DNA of 64,000 nt from Prauserella aidingensis (GTDB lineage: Bacteria; Actinomycetota; Actinomycetes; Mycobacteriales; Pseudonocardiaceae): assembly GCF_024171865.1 (NCBI RefSeq), contig NZ_JAMTCN010000003.1:124001-188000 (forward strand). The letters are read 5' to 3'. Under the pieces are notes generated by a model. That model saw nothing but the letters and a program-made list of their open reading frames with translations, had not been told where the DNA came from and did not search any database. The position numbers and the translations under genes were made by a program. Below, piece after piece: positions 17,304-29,837 of this stretch; position 1 is the first letter of the stretch; each line of letters begins with the position of its first letter.

Positions 17304-18449
<1,146 letters not shown>

Positions 18450-18483
18450 GGAACCCACCTCATTGGCCTTCGCGGTTGCTGTA

Positions 18484-18545
18484 TCCGACGTTGCTGTGTG
18501 TCCGACGTTGCCGGGTCCGACATTGCCGGGACCGACGTTGCCGTG
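18484..18545. repeat. 15-bp tandem repeat in the recA leader
   Basis: Three exact-register units (18501, 18516, 18531) of TCCGACGTTGCCGGG with one or two substitutions, preceded by a related 17-bp unit at 18484. They lie 35-97 nt upstream of the recA ATG, inside its probable 5' leader. Confidence 0.75.
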
Positions 18546-18699
18546 TCCGGGTCGTGCTCGCGGCGGCACCGGGTCGGTGCACGCATGCCGGGGTCACGTG
18601 TGCCGGTCGCCGGGGGCCGACACTACGGGCGGGGTCCGACAGTCGGCGCGAGTCACGCTGAATCTGTGGACAGCCAACCCCGATGTGGACAACATCCTA

Positions 18700-18715
18700 G
18701 AGAACATCTGTTCGA
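18700..18715. promoter_or_regulatory. LexA (SOS) box upstream of recA
   Basis: GAGAACATCTGTTCGA matches the actinobacterial SOS consensus TCGAAC-N4-GTTCGA at the GAAC and GTTCGA core. It lies in the 308-bp gap between recA and the DUF3046 gene, 251 bp before the recA ATG. LexA control of recA is established for the family. The site call is from sequence only. Confidence 0.85.
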
Positions 18716-19108: not shown

Positions 19109-19198
19109 CCGCCGCAGGAGGTGCGGGCCCACGGGCCGGACTCCCGGCCGCACCCGGCCCGCACCCGGAATGTCGGTGACCCGCCGCATCATGGAGAC

Positions 19199-22100
19199 GT
19201 GACCACCCGCGCACTCGACCTCTTCTCCCCCGCGACCAGGGACTGGTTCGCGGGGGCCTTCGCCGCGCCCACCTCCGCGCAGGAAGGCGCGTGGCGGGCC
19301 GCACACGCGGGTGAACACTCGCTGGTCATCGCACCCACAGGGTCGGGCAAGACGCTCGCCGCCTTCCTCTGGGCCCTCGACCGACTGGCCACCACGCCAC
19401 CGCCCGAGGAGACCCGGCACCGGTGCCGGGTCCTGTACGTCTCCCCGCTCAAGGCCCTCGCCGTCGATGTCCAGCGCAACCTGCGCTCCCCGCTCACCGG
19501 CATCGCGCAGGCCTCGCAACGCCTCGACCTGCCCGCACCCGACATCACCGTCGGCATGCGCACCGGCGACACCACGCCCGCCGAACGCCGGTCCTTCCAA
19601 CGCACCCCGCCCGACGTGCTGGTGACCACGCCGGAATCCCTGTTCCTGCTGCTCACGTCGTCGTCGCGGGAGTCGCTGCGGGGCGTGGAGACGGTGATCG
19701 TCGACGAGGTGCACGCCGTCACCGGCGGCAAACGCGGTGCACACCTGGCGCTGTCGCTGGAACGCCTGGACGACCTGCTGCCGACACCGGCGCAGCGCAT
19801 CGGACTCTCGGCCACCGTCCGCCCCGTCGACGAGGTGAGCTCGCTGCTCGCGGGCGGCAGGCCGGTCACGGTCGTCCAGCCCGACGCGGCGAAGACCGTC
19901 GAGGTGCGCGTCGAGGTCCCGGTCGAGGACATGGCCGAACTCGACGGCCCGGCCCCGGCCGCCGAACCCGGCTCCCTCGAGGACGAGGTGCCGGCCGCGG
20001 CCCCACCGAAACCGTCGATCTGGCCGTCGGTCGAAGGGCGCGTGCTGGACCTGGTGCGCGCCCACCGGTCGACCATCGTGTTCGCCAACTCCCGGCGGCT
20101 GGCCGAACGGCTCACCGCCCGGCTCAACGAACTCGCCGCCGAACGCACCGAACTCGAACCCGGCGACGAATTCCCCGCCGAGGCCATCGGCGAATCCGGG
20201 CTCACCACCGGAGCCGAACCGACCGTGGCGAAAGCCCACCACGGCTCCATGTCCCGCCAGCAGCGCACGCGCGTGGAGGAGGAACTCAAGACCGGCAGAC
20301 TGCCCTGCGTCGTGGCGACCTCGTCGCTCGAACTCGGCATCGACATGGGCGCGGTCGACCTCGTGGTGCAGATCGAGGCGCCGCCCACGGTCGCCTCCGG
20401 CCTCCAGCGCGTCGGCCGCGCAGGACACCACGTCGGCGCGGTCTCCAGCGGCGTGATGTTCCCCAAGTTCCGCGGCGACCTCGTCTCCTGCGCCGTCACC
20501 GCCGAGCGCATGGCATCCGGCGCGATCGAAGCGACCCGCTACCCGCGCAACCCGCTCGACGTACTCGCCCAGCAGATCGTGGCGATGGTGGCGCTCGAAC
20601 CGCGCACCGTCGACGACGTGGCCGCCACCGTGCGCCGCGCGGCACCGTTCACCGCACTGCCGGACGACGCCCTGCACGCCGTGCTCGACATGCTCGCCGG
20701 GCGCTACCCCAGCGAGGAGTTCGGCGAGCTGCGCGCCCGCATCACCTGGGACCGCGTCACCGGCGAACTGCACGGCAGACCCGGCGCGCAGCGACTGGCC
20801 GTCACCTCGGGCGGCACCATCCCCGACCGCGGGCTCTTCACCGTGACCACGCCCGGCGAAGGCGGCGCCTCCACGGACGGCCCGGGCAGTAACTCCGTGC
20901 CCTCGGCGGGAAAACGTACCTCGGGCAGTGGCCCCGTGCCCTCGGCGGGAAAACGTACCTCGGGCAGTCGCGTCGGCGAACTCGACGAGGAAATGGTCTA
21001 CGAGTCCCGCGTGGGCGACACCGTCCTGCTGGGCACGTCGTCGTGGCGGATCACCGACATCACCCACGACCGCGTCATCGTCGTCCCCGCCCCCGGCGTG
21101 CCCGCACGGATGCCGTTCTGGAAAGGCGACGCCCCGGGCAGACCGCTCGAACTCGGCAGAGCCCTCGGCGCGTTCCTCCGCGAGGTGTCCGGAGCCCGCG
21201 AGGAGACAGCCCTGCGCCGCGCGGCCGACGCGGGCCTCGACGACCGTGCGGCCTCCAACCTGCTCACCTACCTGCGCGAACAACGCGAAGCCACGCGCCA
21301 CGTCCCCAACGACCGGACCCTGTTGCTCGAACGGTTCCGCGACGAGCTCGGCGACTGGCGCGTCGTCGTGCATTCCCCGTTCGGTGCGCAGGTCAACGCA
21401 CCCTGGGCGCTGGCGATCACGGCGCGGCTGCGCGAAACGCGGGGCGTCGACGTCCAAGCGGCGCACTCCGACGACGGCATCGTGCTGCGCCTGCCCGACG
21501 CGCTCGACGCCGACGGCCAGGAGGTCACCCTGACCGGCGAGGACGTGCTGCTCGACCCGGACGAGGTCGACTCACTCATCGTCACCGAGGTCGGCGGATC
21601 GGCGCTGTTCGCCGCACGGTTCCGCGAGTGCGCGGCGCGGTCGCTGCTGCTGCCGCGGCGCAACCCCGGCAGGCGCAGCCCGCTGTGGCAACAACGCCAA
21701 CGCGCCGCCCAGCTGCTCAGCGTGGCGGCCAAGTACGAGCGCTTCCCCGTCGTCCTGGAAGCGATGCGGGAATGCCTGCAGGACGTCTACGACGTGGACG
21801 GCCTGCGCGAGCTGATGGCCGACGTGCGCAGCCGCACGGTGAAACTCGTCGAGGTGGAGACGCCGTCGGCATCGCCGTTCGCGCGCAGTCTGCTGTTCGG
21901 CTACGTCGGCATGTTTCTCTACGAGACGGACGCCCCGCTGGCCGAACGCAGGGCGGCGGCGCTGTCGCTCGACTCCACGTTGCTGGCGGAACTGCTCGGC
22001 ACCGAAGCGGTCAGGGAACTGCTCGACCCGGAGGCCGTCGCGAACGTCGAACGCGGACTCCAACGCCTCGACGAGGACCGCCACGCCCGCGGCCCCGAGG

Positions 22101-23875
22101 ACACCGCGGACCTGTTGCGTTTCCTCGGCGACATGACGGCCGACGAGGCCGCGGAGCGCGGAGTGCGCCCCGAGTGGCTGACCGAGCTGGTCGACAGCCG
22201 CCGCGCGATCGTGGTGCGCATCGCAGGCGAGGACCGATACCTCGCGATCGAGGACGCGGGGCGGGTGCGGGACGCACTGGGAGCGGCGCTGCCCGTCGGT
22301 GTCCCCGAGACGTTCACCGAACCCGTCGACGACCCGCTCGGCGACCTCGTCACCCGCTACGCACGCACCCACGGGCCGTTCGCGGCCGGGCAACTCGCCG
22401 CACGGTTCGGCATCGGCACGGCCGTCGCCACGGGCGTCCTCGACCGGTTCACCGCCGACGGCAGGCTCGTCCGCGGTGAACTCAGCCCGCAACCCCTCGA
22501 ACCCGGCGGAGTCGAGTACTGCGACGCGGCGGTGCTGCGGCGGCTCCGGCGCGCGTCGTTGGCGAAGCTGCGGGCCGAGGTCGAACCCGTCGAACCGGCG
22601 GCACTCGGCCGGTTCCTGCCCACCTGGCACGGCATCGGTGCACGGCTGCGTTCGGCTCCGACGGCCGACGACGTGCTGTCGGTGGTCGAGCAGCTGGCCG
22701 GGGCGCCGCTGCCCGCGAGCGCACTCGAATCGCTGATCCTGCCGAGCCGACTGCCCGGTTATCACCCGGCGCTGCTCGACGAGCTGACCACCGCGGGCGA
22801 GGTGGTCTGGGCGGGCTGCGGCGCGCTGTCCGGCGGGGACGGCTGGGTCGCACTCGCGCCGGCCGACGTGGCCGACCTGCTGCTACCCGAAGCGGACCAC
22901 GACGTCGGCGAGACCGGCCCGGTCCACCGAGCCGTGCTGGCGGCGGTCGAACACGGCGCGCTGTTCTTCCGGCAGCTCGTCGACCGGGTGACGCCGCTGC
23001 TCGACAGCCCACCCGACGACGCCACGGTCGTGGCCGCGCTCTGGGATCTCACCTGGGCGGGTCTCATCACGGGTGACACGCTCGCGCCGCTGCGGGCACA
23101 GGTCTCCGGGGGCGGTGCGGCGCACAAGGCGCGGCGGTCCGCACCGCGGGGCCGCTACGCACGTATGCGGGCGAGCAGACCTGCGATGCCGTCGCGGACC
23201 GGGCCGCCGACCGTCGCGGGCCGGTGGGGCCCGACACCGCCGCGGGAGACCGACCCGACCCGGCGGGCGCACGCGCGCACCGAGTCGTTCCTCGAGCGCC
23301 ACGGCGTGCTGACCAAGGGCGCCCTCGACACCGAACGCGTCACGGGCGGCTTCTCCGGCATCTACAAGGTGCTGCGCGGCATGGAGGACTCGGGGCAGGT
23401 CGTCCGCGGCTACGTCGTCGACGGGCTGGGCGCCGCACAGTTCGCCGCGCGCGGGGCGGTCGACCGGCTGCGCGCGGCGAGCGACACCTCGGGGACACGG
23501 GATGCCCAGGGTGCGGTCGTACTCGCGGCGAGCGACCCCGCCCAGCCCTACGGTGCGGCGCTGCCGTGGCCGCAGCCGCTCGGCAGCACGAAACACCGGC
23601 CCGCCCGTAAGGCCGGTGCCCTGGTGGTGCTGGTCGACGGTGTTCCCGCGTTGTACGTCGAACGCGGCGGCCGGTCGCTGCTGTCGTTCACCGAACACAC
23701 CGAGCCGCTGCGGCAGGCTGCCGAGGCGCTCTCGACCGCGGTCCGCGAGGGCTGGCTGGGCAAACTGCAGGTGCAGCGCGCCGACGGCGAACAGGCTCTG
23801 ACGTCGCAGCTCGCGGACGTGCTGCGCGAGGCCGGCTTCCGCGCTACCCCGAAGGGCCTGCGGCTACGGGCCTGA
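19199..23875 (+). CDS. lhr: Lhr-type ATP-dependent helicase
   Basis: A giant superfamily 2 DNA helicase of 1558 residues. The N-terminal RecA-like domains carry the Q-motif region, Walker A APTGSGKT (about 45-52), VDEVHAV (motif II, DEVH) and SATVRP (motif III). The second domain has [15 protein letters not shown] and QRVGRAGHH (motif VI). A winged-helix and the long Lhr C-terminal domain follow. GTG 19199 is the best in-frame start after the upstream small ORF. Lhr proteins in mycobacteria act in DNA repair (mitomycin response). An in-frame 39-bp tandem duplication is present at 20895-20972. Proximity to recA may be incidental. Confidence 0.93.
20895..20972 (+). repeat. 39-bp in-frame tandem duplication within lhr
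   Basis: Two nearly identical 39-bp units start at 20895 and 20934 and encode [13 protein letters not shown] then [13 protein letters not shown]. They contain an AT-richer GGGAAAACGTACC core unlike the surrounding codons and lie in a variable Gly/Ser-rich loop. Confidence 0.85.
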
Positions 23876-26977: not shown

Positions 26978-27742
26978 TCAGCGGCCGGGGACGAGGTCGA
27001 TCACGGTGCCGTCCGGGTCGACGAGCCGCCCGGCACCGCGGCGGGTCGCACCGAGCAGGCGCAGCCGGTCCGCCTCGGCGGCGAACTCCCCCGGAGCCGC
27101 GGGCGACGACGCGGTTCCGGCCGCGGAGTTCCCGTCGCTCGCCGGGACGGCCAGTTCGAGCCGGCAACGCGGAGTCACCGGCGGACACGGATCGGCCGAC
27201 AACAGTTCCAGCCACGGACCGCGGCCGTCGGCGGCGCGCAGGCTCACGAACTCCGGCTCGGTCCGCACGATCGGCCACCGGGTGGCACCGGACCAGAACT
27301 CGGCCAGCCGGTGCGGGTCCGGTGAGTCGATCACCACGGCGGCGAGGGCCCCGGTGGCGGCGTACTCGGGACGCGGTTCGAGGACGCAGAACTCGTTTCC
27401 CGCGGGGTCGGCCAGCACCTGCCACGGCACCGGGACCGCACCCGCGTACTGCCCGATGTCGACACGGGCCGCGCCGAGCCGGATCGCTCTGTCCACAATG
27501 GCGTTCTGCGTCCCCGGACCGGGGGTGTCGTCGTCGCCGGAGGCGAGGTCGAGGTGAATCCGGTTCTTGGTCGTTTTCCCCGCCGTGGCACCGACGAGGT
27601 GGATCGTCGGACCGTCCGGGAGCCGGACTCTCCACCCGCCGCCGTCGTCTCCGGCGAGGTCGCCGACGAGCAACGTGGCCCAGAACTCCGCAACCACCCG
27701 CGGCTGTTCGGCTTCGAACACCACTCCGGGCATACCGTTCAC
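26978..27742 (-). CDS. Two-domain VOC (glyoxalase-fold) protein
   Basis: A 254-residue protein of two vicinal-oxygen-chelate halves: FEAEQPRVVAEFWATLL with NRIHLDL and PAGNEFCVLEP in the first (1-125), and VIDSPDPHRLAEFWS with PRCRLELAV and DPDGTVIDLVPG in the second (130-254). The HLDL/EFCVLE pattern is that of metal- or ligand-binding glyoxalase/bleomycin-resistance relatives. GTG 27742 follows GGAGG by 6 nt. It lies 62 bp after the DinB-fold gene on the same strand. Substrate unknown. Confidence 0.85.
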   Translation of the reverse strand: MNGMPGVVFEAEQPRVVAEFWATLLVGDLAGDDGGGWRVRLPDGPTIHLVGATAGKTTKNRIHLDLASGDDDTPGPGTQNAIVDRAIRLGAARVDIGQYAGAVPVPWQVLADPAGNEFCVLEPRPEYAATGALAAVVIDSPDPHRLAEFWSGATRWPIVRTEPEFVSLRAADGRGPWLELLSADPCPPVTPRCRLELAVPASDGNSAAGTASSPAAPGEFAAEADRLRLLGATRRGAGRLVDPDGTVIDLVPGR

Positions 27743-27803: not shown

Positions 27804-28571
27804 TCATCGCGTCGCCAGCCGCATGAGCGCCAGCAATTGCCCGGCCGCGTCCTCGTCACCGGCCACGTCGACCGCTCCGGGCCGATTCCGGCCCCACAGC
27901 CACAGGTAGACCGCCTCGGGCCCGCCCGACACCACGGCCGCGGCGTCACGCGCCTCCGACTCGCGGCAGCGGCGCACGGCCGTCTCGTCCGGCCCCGCGG
28001 ACACGAGCCAACCGCGCCCACCCGTGCACACACCGACCTCTCCCGCACGCGTTCCCCGGAGTCCGAGCCGGGGCAGCCGGTGGCCGAACCACAGCATGAG
28101 CGCCTCGTCGACCCCGTCGCGCGCCACATCGGCGGCGACCCCGGACCAGGTCATTCCTCCGGCACCTTCGACGTCGACCCGGTGGACCGTGGTGTCGTGC
28201 GCCATGCGCCTGCACCAGAAGCCGTAGGTGCGGTCCTCGGGCCACCAGGTCGCCGCGGGCCTGTCCGGACCGTGGAAGTCGAGGATCTCGCGCAGGTCCG
28301 CGTACCCCTGCCGGACGTAGCTCTCCTCGCTCTGCCCCGGAGCCGGGACACGCTGCCATTCCCGTGGTCGCTGGCCGTCGATCAGCCACGCCTGGGCCAC
28401 GCGGTAGATGCTGCCGACGTGCCGCACCGTGTCCGCGACCGTCCACCCCGGACACGTCGGCACCGGCGTCTCCGGTGCGAGACCTCGCGACGCCTCGATC
28501 AGCAGTGTGACCTCGGCGCCGAACGCCTCGGCGAGCCGCCGGTGATCGACCACCGGGCCGCCACCCGCCAC
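27804..28571 (-). CDS. Maleylpyruvate isomerase-family (mycothiol-dependent, DinB-fold) protein
   Basis: About 255 residues. The N-terminal four-helix domain has PVPTCPGWTVADTVRHVGSIYR (the CPGWTV signature of the MDMPI_N family) and RMAHDTTVHRVD with metal-ligand His positions. The C-terminal sterol-carrier-like MDMPI_C domain has YLWLWGR. Relatives are mycothiol-dependent isomerases or S-transferases. Several GTG starts compete (28577, 28571, 28553); 28571 has GGAG 9 nt upstream. The 5' end touches the stop of the HEPN gene (28574), so the two are translationally coupled and share any SOS control. Confidence 0.85.
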   Translation of the reverse strand: MAGGGPVVDHRRLAEAFGAEVTLLIEASRGLAPETPVPTCPGWTVADTVRHVGSIYRVAQAWLIDGQRPREWQRVPAPGQSEESYVRQGYADLREILDFHGPDRPAATWWPEDRTYGFWCRRMAHDTTVHRVDVEGAGGMTWSGVAADVARDGVDEALMLWFGHRLPRLGLRGTRAGEVGVCTGGRGWLVSAGPDETAVRRCRESEARDAAAVVSGGPEAVYLWLWGRNRPGAVDVAGDEDAAGQLLALMRLATR

Positions 28572-28573
28572 CG

Positions 28574-29098
28574 TCACCGTCTCCGCGACCGCGGCCACGG
28601 CACCGTGGCGTCGCACTGCGTCGCAGCCCCGTGTCCACCCGGCCCGGACTGCCCGCGCACGAGCACGTCGGCGATCGCGAGGAATTCGCCCGCCCGCTGC
28701 ACCAGCTCGTTCGCCGACTCCTCGTCCGCACCACGGGACACGCCCGACTGGAGCGCGGCGTGCCGCGCCGAGAACGCTGCGAAGTAGGCGGCCCAGCCTG
28801 CCAGTTCCGGAGCAGCCGTCTCCAGCAGTGACCACGTGCTCTCCGGCTTGGCGCGGCCCCGGTGCGGCCTGCCCCGCGCCGTCAGCACCGCCGCCGCGGC
28901 CCGCAATGCGGACAGGTACGCACCCGTGAACCGCTCCACCAGATCGGACTCCCGTCGCGCCTCCTGGACGCCGCGGCGGGCCTGAGCCAGCAGCGGAGCG
29001 GTCGCAGGCGCGGCGGGTGGTGCCTGCGCAAACGGCAGCGCGGGCTGCGCGGCCTGCTTCCGCACCGACGGATCCTGCGGCGTCATGGCAACCGACAC
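28574..29098 (-). CDS. SAV_6107-family HEPN domain protein
   Basis: A 174-residue helical protein with LLAQARRGVQEARRES followed by ERFTGAYLSALRAAAAVLTARGR and STWSLLETAAPELAGWAAYFAAFSARHAALQ, the pattern of the SAV_6107 HEPN family of actinobacteria. GTG 29098 follows AAGGGGG at good spacing. A longer frame reaches ATG 29242 but would place the SOS box inside the gene. Its promoter region contains a near-perfect LexA box (29205-29220), so DNA-damage induction is likely. HEPN proteins are often RNases or nucleotidyltransferase partners, but the usual R-x4-6-H motif is not obvious, so activity is open. Confidence 0.8.
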   Translation of the reverse strand: MSVAMTPQDPSVRKQAAQPALPFAQAPPAAPATAPLLAQARRGVQEARRESDLVERFTGAYLSALRAAAAVLTARGRPHRGRAKPESTWSLLETAAPELAGWAAYFAAFSARHAALQSGVSRGADEESANELVQRAGEFLAIADVLVRGQSGPGGHGAATQCDATVPWPRSRRR

Positions 29099-29204
29099 GG
29101 CCGCCCCCTTCCCAGTTCTGCCGCTCGTGCACTCCCCGCTCGAGCGGCGTCCGGCACGGGATGCTTCCCCCATCCACGTGCCGGACGCCCGGGGATCCCC
29201 GATG

Positions 29205-29220
29205 CCGAACATCTGTTCGA
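29205..29220. promoter_or_regulatory. LexA (SOS) box upstream of the HEPN gene
   Basis: CCGAACATCTGTTCGA differs from the ideal TCGAAC-N4-GTTCGA palindrome by one base. It is 107 bp upstream of GTG 29098 and 96 bp upstream of the divergent YbaK start. It shares the same 12-base core as the recA box, which supports the call. Confidence 0.85.
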
Positions 29221-29315
29221 CACCTTCACGGTAGCGCGCCATCGGCTTCCCGACAAGCGCCGCCCACGAGCGATCTGCGTCGCACCCCGGACCGCCGACG
29301 TGATCTCATGAAGTC

Positions 29316-29837
29316 ATGAGCACCCTCGACCATCCGTCGGTCGCGAAGGTCGCGGCCGCGCTCTCCGAGGCCGACCAGGGCGCCGCTGCGCAGGGAATCC
29401 GTCTTCTCCCGGACGACGCCCGCACGGCCGAGCTGGCAGCCGCGGCGCTGGGCATCGAGGTCGGCGCGATCGCCAACAGCCTGGTGTTCCGCGCCACGCT
29501 GCCCGACGGCACCGACCGCGCGCTGCTCGCGCTGACCTCCGGGGCGCACCGGGCGAACACGACGACGCTCGCCGAGCTCGCCGGCGCCGAGAAGGTCGGC
29601 AGGGCCGATCCGGAGTTCGTCAAGGCCGCGACGGGACAGACGATCGGCGGCGTCGCCCCGGTCGGCCACCCCCAGCGCATCCTCACGTTCGTCGACACGG
29701 CCCTGGCCGCCCACGACGTCGTGTGGGCCGCGGCGGGGCATCCGAAGTCGGTCTACCCCACCACGTTCGACGGACTGCTCGCGGCGACCGGCGGCACCGC
29801 GGCGGACGTCGCGGCCGAACCGGGACAGCACCGATGA
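29316..29837 (+). CDS. YbaK/EbsC-family tRNA-editing protein
   Basis: A 173-residue free-standing editing domain related to the prolyl-tRNA synthetase insertion domain. It has NSLVFRATLPDGTDRALLALTSG, the invariant Lys region EKVGRADPEFVKAATGQTIGGVAPVGH and VWAAAGHPKSVYPTTFDGLL. It probably hydrolyses mischarged tRNA (for example Cys- or Ala-tRNAPro). ATG 29316 is 17 nt after an in-frame stop. The stop overlaps the next gene's start (ATGA), so the GNAT gene is coupled. It is divergent from the HEPN gene, with the SOS box between them. Confidence 0.92.
   Translation: MSTLDHPSVAKVAAALSEADQGAAAQGIRLLPDDARTAELAAAALGIEVGAIANSLVFRATLPDGTDRALLALTSGAHRANTTTLAELAGAEKVGRADPEFVKAATGQTIGGVAPVGHPQRILTFVDTALAAHDVVWAAAGHPKSVYPTTFDGLLAATGGTAADVAAEPGQHR

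Follow-up and report, generated by a model that had tools for sequence, protein, structure and literature searches.

Sequence comparison gives good support to the strong conservation of a predicted LexA operator in front of the actinobacterial HEPN_SAV_6107 gene, and we identified such an operator at positions 29205-29220 of the window (the whole 64,000-nucleotide stretch of Prauserella aidingensis DNA analysed here). We consider the following joint reading quite probable: LexA, bound where transcription from a minus-strand promoter is predicted to start, would repress HEPN_SAV_6107 together with the MDMPI gene behind it (perhaps also a VOC gene), a hairpin in the leader would add further control, and the HEPN protein would act in damage tolerance. 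DNA damage would release the operon through RecA-stimulated cleavage of LexA, and the transcript would open with a leader of about 135 nt whose conserved GGGGAAG-loop hairpin is probably a further layer of control, at the RNA level. The most likely role of the HEPN protein lies in actinobacterial damage tolerance, probably as a non-catalytic helical accessory of translesion polymerases, and the operon of Pseudonocardiaceae may have kept or gained MDMPI instead, possibly as a thiol-dependent detoxifier of genotoxic electrophiles. What was an orphan family would thereby become an SOS gene conserved widely in actinobacteria, with a specific link, open to testing, to the error-prone polymerases of damage-induced mutation, and the stretch from the LexA operator to the first gene would gain a conserved leader RNA.

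The box reads CCGAACATCTGTTCGA at 29205-29220, and its inner part, CGAACATCTGTTCG (29206-29219), is the sole match without mismatch to CGAACN4GTTCG within the 64-kb window. On the HEPN strand the predicted operator (SOS box; minus strand) reads TCGAACAGATGTTCGG, one base away from TCGAACN4GTTCGA, as the sequence-only reading had claimed. That reading had also noted a core common to this box and the box of recA (17304-18569, minus strand), and the recA-linked site, AGAACATCTGTTCG at 18701-18714, bears this out. The recA box sits between recA and a divergent Lhr-type helicase ORF on the plus strand (19121-23875); because it lies between the two divergent genes, the helicase may share the recA operator. 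The genome has one RecA match and two LexA_DNA_bind matches, and upstream of a lexA-like gene lie three boxes, each with one mismatch. The second protein with a LexA DNA-binding domain is encoded at G000:C28:65127-65312. The perfect 14-mer occurs at 24 places in the genome, against one for a reversed-pattern control. The surroundings of ten of the other 23 places were read (L001-L004 and L092-L097), and few of these places lay at a plausible promoter, so that a box by itself proves little and conservation becomes the decisive evidence.

A protein search of 60 genomes from the same family found HEPN homologues in 53, and 52 loci were used (G011 was left out; G032 is a weak partial match, and G019 is represented by the better of its two matches only). 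The 16-mer box with zero or one mismatch was located no more than 400 bp upstream of the HEPN match in 49 of the 52 loci and farther upstream, at -562 to -1005, in the remaining three, while the other ~595 kb of these loci contained two unrelated matches. In a second sample, of named Pseudonocardiaceae loci (the 80 best-scoring of 169 relatives; some assemblies are common to both samples, which are therefore not independent), the box with zero or one mismatch lay within 450 bp upstream of HEPN_SAV_6107 in 61 of 80, compared with a maximum of 1/80 for 179 permuted half-site decoys in the same 450 bp. The decoys and the conservation together rule out a chance match as the origin of the box. When the distance was extended to 1.4 kb, the box was present in 79 of the 80; the lone exception, L245, lies at a contig edge, where the sequence ends 476 bp upstream. 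Conservation upstream of SAV_6107-family genes, which the sequence-only reading had proposed to examine, was thus confirmed. The nearest named relative among those listed was Prauserella isguenensis. Among the far-box loci inspected, one Pseudonocardia locus has an extra gene, and in four of Amycolatopsis type the HEPN frame appears to be lengthened at its N-terminus by a long region of low complexity, or the sequence shows an open stretch. At the Amycolatopsis locus L244, an apparent long proline-rich N-terminal extension of the HEPN frame fills most of the gap to the box.

The box was also found in other families. It was present at two mismatches or fewer in all 28 best-scoring loci of a family read as Mycobacteriaceae (28 new loci of the best 30 from 186 matches; two are cut by contig ends, one of these with a shifted origin), and a box was likewise found in 26 of 27 new loci read from an order with polymerase operons (best 30 of 94 matches; L366 and L378 are cut by contig ends, and L365 is cut). 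In a Corynebacterium-like genus (best 30 of 41 loci), 20 loci had a box at two mismatches or fewer and 10 had no site at this threshold. Ten of 18 Streptomyces-like loci carried a degenerate two-mismatch CCGAAC...CGA site at -272 to -293, and the other eight had no site with two or fewer mismatches. The degenerate site fits the LexA consensus of S. venezuelae, tCGAAC-N4-GNNCGa, save for the first base (PMC9380542, available part), and the HEPN gene is not named in Table 1 of that paper as far as the available text goes. The assignment of family f1 to Pseudonocardiaceae rests on the named loci, and the labels f2, f5, Corynebacterium-like and Mycobacterium-like were inferred from gene order; gene calls were made by composition and our own profiles, with a Pfam check on representatives only. 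Judged by its match to the consensus and its conservation in the family loci, 29205-29220 is almost certainly the LexA operator of the minus-strand HEPN gene.

The geometry of the promoter indicates the direction in which the box works. Box-anchored alignment of the 52 family loci revealed enrichment on the HEPN strand of a TTGA-like element at -38 to -34 and of TAnnnT at -14; the latter stands exactly at -14 in 29 of the 52 loci and between -13 and -16 in 47, and at these offsets it occurs on the opposite strand in none of the 52. On this box-anchored composition, the window has a predicted minus-strand promoter at 29228-29256, with TTGTCG (29256-29251) as the -35 element, a 17-nt spacer and TACCGT (29233-29228) as the -10 element. 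The box therefore covers the predicted start site, and transcription is expected to start at the upstream edge of the box. A divergent gene for a tRNA-editing-domain (YbaK-like) protein (29316-29837, plus strand; PF04073 tRNA_edit) lies on the other side, and the sequence-only reading had the box shared with it. It could even be proposed that the box mainly serves this gene and the GNAT gene behind it, with HEPN as a bystander, since the tRNA-editing gene is divergent within 500 bp of the HEPN match in 25 of the 52 family loci. The fixed-offset -10 element, however, lies on the HEPN strand; of the 52 loci, 25 have the tRNA-editing gene at a distance of over 500 bp or show no such gene, and there the box stays beside HEPN; and the best tRNA-editing homologue in three genomes without HEPN (G005, G035 and G038; the G005 homologue is weak, E 5.7e-6) has no box. 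For these three reasons we reject an operator of the divergent gene as extremely unlikely, drop the sharing of the box and treat it as the operator of HEPN.

The HEPN gene (28574-29086, minus strand; start placed at a predicted ATG at 29086) encodes 170 aa and matches PF18726 (HEPN_SAV_6107) with 99.3 bits against a curated cut-off of 27.2. It is followed on the same strand by a gene for an MDMPI-type (mycothiol-dependent DinB/YfiT-fold) enzyme at 27804-28577 (TIGR03083, 55 bits; PF11716; PF07398), whose candidate GTG start at 28577 overlaps the HEPN stop codon (GTGA). MDMPI stands directly behind HEPN in 49 of 52 family loci, and by a nearest-start rule the two genes overlap in 39 loci, lie no more than 30 bp apart in eight and are farther apart in two. 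A VOC/Glyoxalase_6 protein (26978-27733, minus strand; PF18029) is encoded next and is a possible third operon gene, but a VOC gene was found downstream in 15 of the 52 family loci only, which leaves it unsupported as a fixed member. Of the SOS operon proposed by the sequence-only reading, the operator before HEPN and the coupling of HEPN to the MDMPI gene therefore stand, and membership of the VOC gene is doubtful. In MDMPI/DinB-fold enzymes, His and Glu are metal ligands. An HETTVHR-type motif is conserved in the MDMPI proteins of the family, and Asp replaces Glu in the window protein.

Seven of the 60 family genomes yielded no HEPN match, and four of them (L306-L309, three genera) have kept a perfect box together with MDMPI. 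Pfam recognised MDMPI domains in each of these genomes, with clear matches in two and matches close to the cut-off in the other two, and L307 retains a 13-bit remnant of the HEPN N-terminus. Because box and MDMPI persist there, we assign the operator to the operon and not to HEPN alone, and we regard HEPN as dispensable in these four genomes, which offer a natural experiment separating the roles of the two proteins. They also favour another reading, in which selection acts on the MDMPI enzyme as the SOS output, for its thiol-dependent detoxification of electrophiles that damage DNA, and HEPN is only a co-transcribed helper. A precedent for this is SiwR of M. smegmatis, under which DinB/YfiT-superfamily genes are raised by genotoxic stress and near some of whose loci Glyoxalase_6 genes lie (PMC10693628, available part). 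The resemblance extends to DinB-fold putative thiol enzymes, genotoxic stress and, in some genomes, Glyoxalase_6 neighbours; the SiwR system differs in using a WYL activator instead of LexA and in its DinB subfamilies, and HEPN was not found in the available part of that paper. By this analogy MDMPI may be a thiol-dependent detoxifier. As the sole selected output it is possible yet doubtful, because in the loci read from other families box and HEPN occur without an adjoining MDMPI gene.

Three settings of HEPN were found by our own profiles. In Pseudonocardiaceae the gene forms the HEPN-MDMPI pair. In the Mycobacteriaceae-like setting a GNAT gene is divergent, and HEPN is followed by DUF3040, mraZ and rsmH in this order. 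The third setting, seen in other families, has the box ahead of ImuB-C (DUF6504), HEPN and DnaE2, often with a methyltransferase and DinB, and in some other families HEPN stands before DinB under the same operator. One related order contains HEPN in 94 of 198 genomes and gave no HEPN match in the other 104. In its 27 new loci, HEPN is followed by DnaE2 or a Y-family polymerase in 26 cases and preceded by ImuB-C/DUF6504 in 24; L365 has almost no upstream sequence, and L378 is cut downstream by a contig end. Measured in 24 such loci, the gap between HEPN and the start behind it falls between -4 and +23 bp in 17 and between +60 and +123 bp in seven. Representatives of this synteny were confirmed by Pfam. 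Our assignment of HEPN to damage tolerance builds on this arrangement, in which the same operator stands before a HEPN gene that is flanked by ImuB-C and DnaE2 or followed by DinB. At the window locus no DnaE2, ImuB-C or Y-family polymerase gene adjoins HEPN, and the role proposed there thus rests on distant synteny. The ImuB-C-like gene before HEPN in Pseudonocardia-type loci scores weakly with our own model (15-16 bits in L305 and G004, less in G042 and G050), and the L305 gene has no Pfam match. The polymerase-adjacent HEPN proteins (L352-L377) carry a conserved VE..LGLP-like C-terminal stretch that was not seen in the MDMPI-linked ones (24 versus 51 sequences). Within the family sample that includes the Mycobacterium-like genus g47, 30 of 31 genera have HEPN, and g47 lacks it in 14 of 14 genomes.

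SOS-controlled toxins are known elsewhere, and HEPN might accordingly be an RNase toxin released by the SOS response, with MDMPI or another gene as its antidote. Many HEPN families are indeed RNases or toxins, but the SAV_6107 family is marked 'No' in what appears to be the catalytic-motif column (both from the available part of PMC3710099). No nucleotidyltransferase antidote was present among the six window proteins scanned, and elsewhere HEPN belongs to polymerase operons; we therefore set the toxin-antitoxin reading aside as very improbable. A loose Rx4-6H scan at any position matched 51 of 75 HEPN sequences, a pattern too loose to inform, and no solved structure was matched by sequence (best E 0.17).

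The preferred reading, an SOS-controlled HEPN gene, has a partial precedent, judging by gene order and family, in C. glutamicum. There cg2381, a conserved hypothetical gene, is listed in the LexA regulon and was induced by ciprofloxacin with an M value of 3.86, equal to that of recA (PMC5055667, available part). C. glutamicum, used as a control genome, carries PF18726; mraZ is cg2378, three gene numbers from cg2381, and mraW is cg2377 (PMC3890552, available part). The position of cg2381 fits the HEPN-DUF3040-mraZ-rsmH order of related loci, and cg2381 was matched to the HEPN gene by synteny and family only. The six Corynebacterium-like loci read have DUF3040 behind HEPN instead of MDMPI, and none has the GGGGAAG hairpin. 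The claim that the combination is not a described SOS operon consequently holds in part: it gives way at cg2381, and it stands for the HEPN-MDMPI pair and the leader RNA, neither of which turned up in the open-access searches. Among the open-access matches listed, no paper, judged by its entry, describes a link of HEPN to LexA/SOS or to translesion synthesis or the HEPN-MDMPI pair, and searches for mycothiol with LexA, for DUF6504/ImuB-C and for a leader RNA with dnaE2 returned, among those listed, no paper on the HEPN link or the leader. DnaE2-[ImuB-C] modules were found only in Actinobacteria in a 2026 survey, in whose main text, as available, HEPN has no occurrence (PMC12926913). The SOS-boxed HEPN genes of other families resemble these modules in their place between ImuB-C/DUF6504 and DnaE2 or before DinB, and the window locus differs from them in lacking these polymerase genes. 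In their available parts, PMC6511836 does not name HEPN and PMC3765255 contains no occurrence of HEPN. On the evidence of gene order and operator, HEPN_SAV_6107 is a candidate component, overlooked so far, of the machinery behind mutation in bacteria.

Between the box and the HEPN gene we found a leader RNA hairpin (29142-29192, minus strand) with a stem of 17-18 bp and the loop GGGGAAG at 29164-29170, identified by covariation and a covariance model. The window hairpin scored 51.5 bits and was the only match at E<=0.01 in its own genome (150 of 7654 first-look candidates scored), and the fold of the window leader has a z of -4.36. Simple pairing rules detected the hairpin in 44 of the 52 family loci and gave none in the other eight. 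Of the 80 named loci (best 80 of 169), 65 had it by these rules and 15 did not, and it was present in 16 of 45 Mycobacteriaceae-like loci; in one family the loop is AGGGAAG in place of GGGGAAG. The covariance model placed a sense-strand hairpin in 67 of the 80 named loci (best 80 of 169; 21 of the 67 were among the model sequences), each no more than 250 bp downstream of the box and before HEPN, and its sole other match in these loci was antisense at the same place. In a search of 13 genomes (150 first-look candidates scored in each), five had one match each and eight had none; in the own genome and three relatives with a located HEPN gene, the match was the HEPN leader. The hairpin was undetected in four of six same-genus relatives at the same depth of scoring, and the GGGGAAG hairpin was not found in the loci of families f5-f8 and the Corynebacterium-like loci examined.

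Long GC-rich inverted repeats can attenuate transcription without a specific partner, and the leader hairpin might accordingly be a DNA element or a mere terminator-like repeat instead of an RNA regulator. Its sequences were picked by the loop and by three inner pairs (69 of 97 distinct segments went into the model), so the invariance of the loop is partly due to selection, and the three inner pairs owe their pairing to it. In the 69-sequence alignment, however, 90.4% of cells pair. Changes on both sides occur at 15 of 17 pairs, and at 13 of 14 when the three inner pairs are set aside. Covariation scored 0.515, compared with 0.200 in shuffles and no more than 0.125 in slid controls. Under one common rule, the hairpin with its exact loop was present in 43 of 52 family leaders and in 4 of 2988 control segments. 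We therefore judge a hairpin without RNA-level function rather unlikely, and the leader probably acts as a second regulator behind the LexA operator. The [AG]GGGAAG motif occurs in 12 of 26 polymerase-type leaders, and some loci of this type gave weak model matches of 28-34 bits.

Some leaders have a second hairpin, with the loop CUUCCCC: 22 of the 52 from the family and seven of the 26 of polymerase type. By the common rule it is present in 20 of the 52 and in one of the 2988 control segments. It is absent from the window leader. In the 26 cases with both hairpins (from overlapping samples), the loops lie exactly 31 nt apart in 18. Rfam gave no family for the leader at gathering threshold in 14 related loci, and none of its relaxed-threshold matches in the window stretch reached the gathering score; the locus L068 (7800-7902) has a sub-threshold match to YrlA (Y RNA-like), with 52.2 bits against 69. 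The consensus loop of the mraW RNA (RF01746), CUUCCCC, is the exact complement of the leader loop GGGGAAG. This RNA differs from the leader hairpin in strand and in place, being opposite in strand and located between mraZ and rsmH in the loci read, and the window hairpin scored 19.6 bits against RF01746, on the other strand and below the gathering threshold of 50.

These loops suggest a bolder version of our model, in which HEPN_SAV_6107 would be a missing subunit or manager of the actinobacterial DnaE2/ImuB-C translesion machine, with a regulatory leader on its SOS transcript, and the GGGGAAG loop would pair either with the CUUCCCC loop of the second hairpin, which some genomes have roughly 31 nt farther downstream, or, in trans, with the mraW RNA belonging to the cell-division operon. 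We hold this full version to be improbable, and the GGGGAAG-CUUCCCC pairing is put forward as a hypothesis; if true, pairing with mraW RNA would tie DNA-damage mutagenesis to division control. By our reasoning, intramolecular kissing of the two leader loops would be sterically hard because their stems abut, and we keep pairing in trans or protein binding as options. The mraW RNA was matched at E<=0.01 in 29 of 30 genomes and above the gathering score in 23, and its loop reads CTTCCCC in 23 of 30 rows, a rough count in which any TTCCC in a 320-nt stretch was accepted. The mraW loop deviates in the window's own genus (L345, the own genome; the others read were L129, L133, L206, L207, L214-L216, L219, L221 and L223). 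In one of these genomes (G010), the best mraW RNA match falls on the HEPN leader itself, on its antisense strand.
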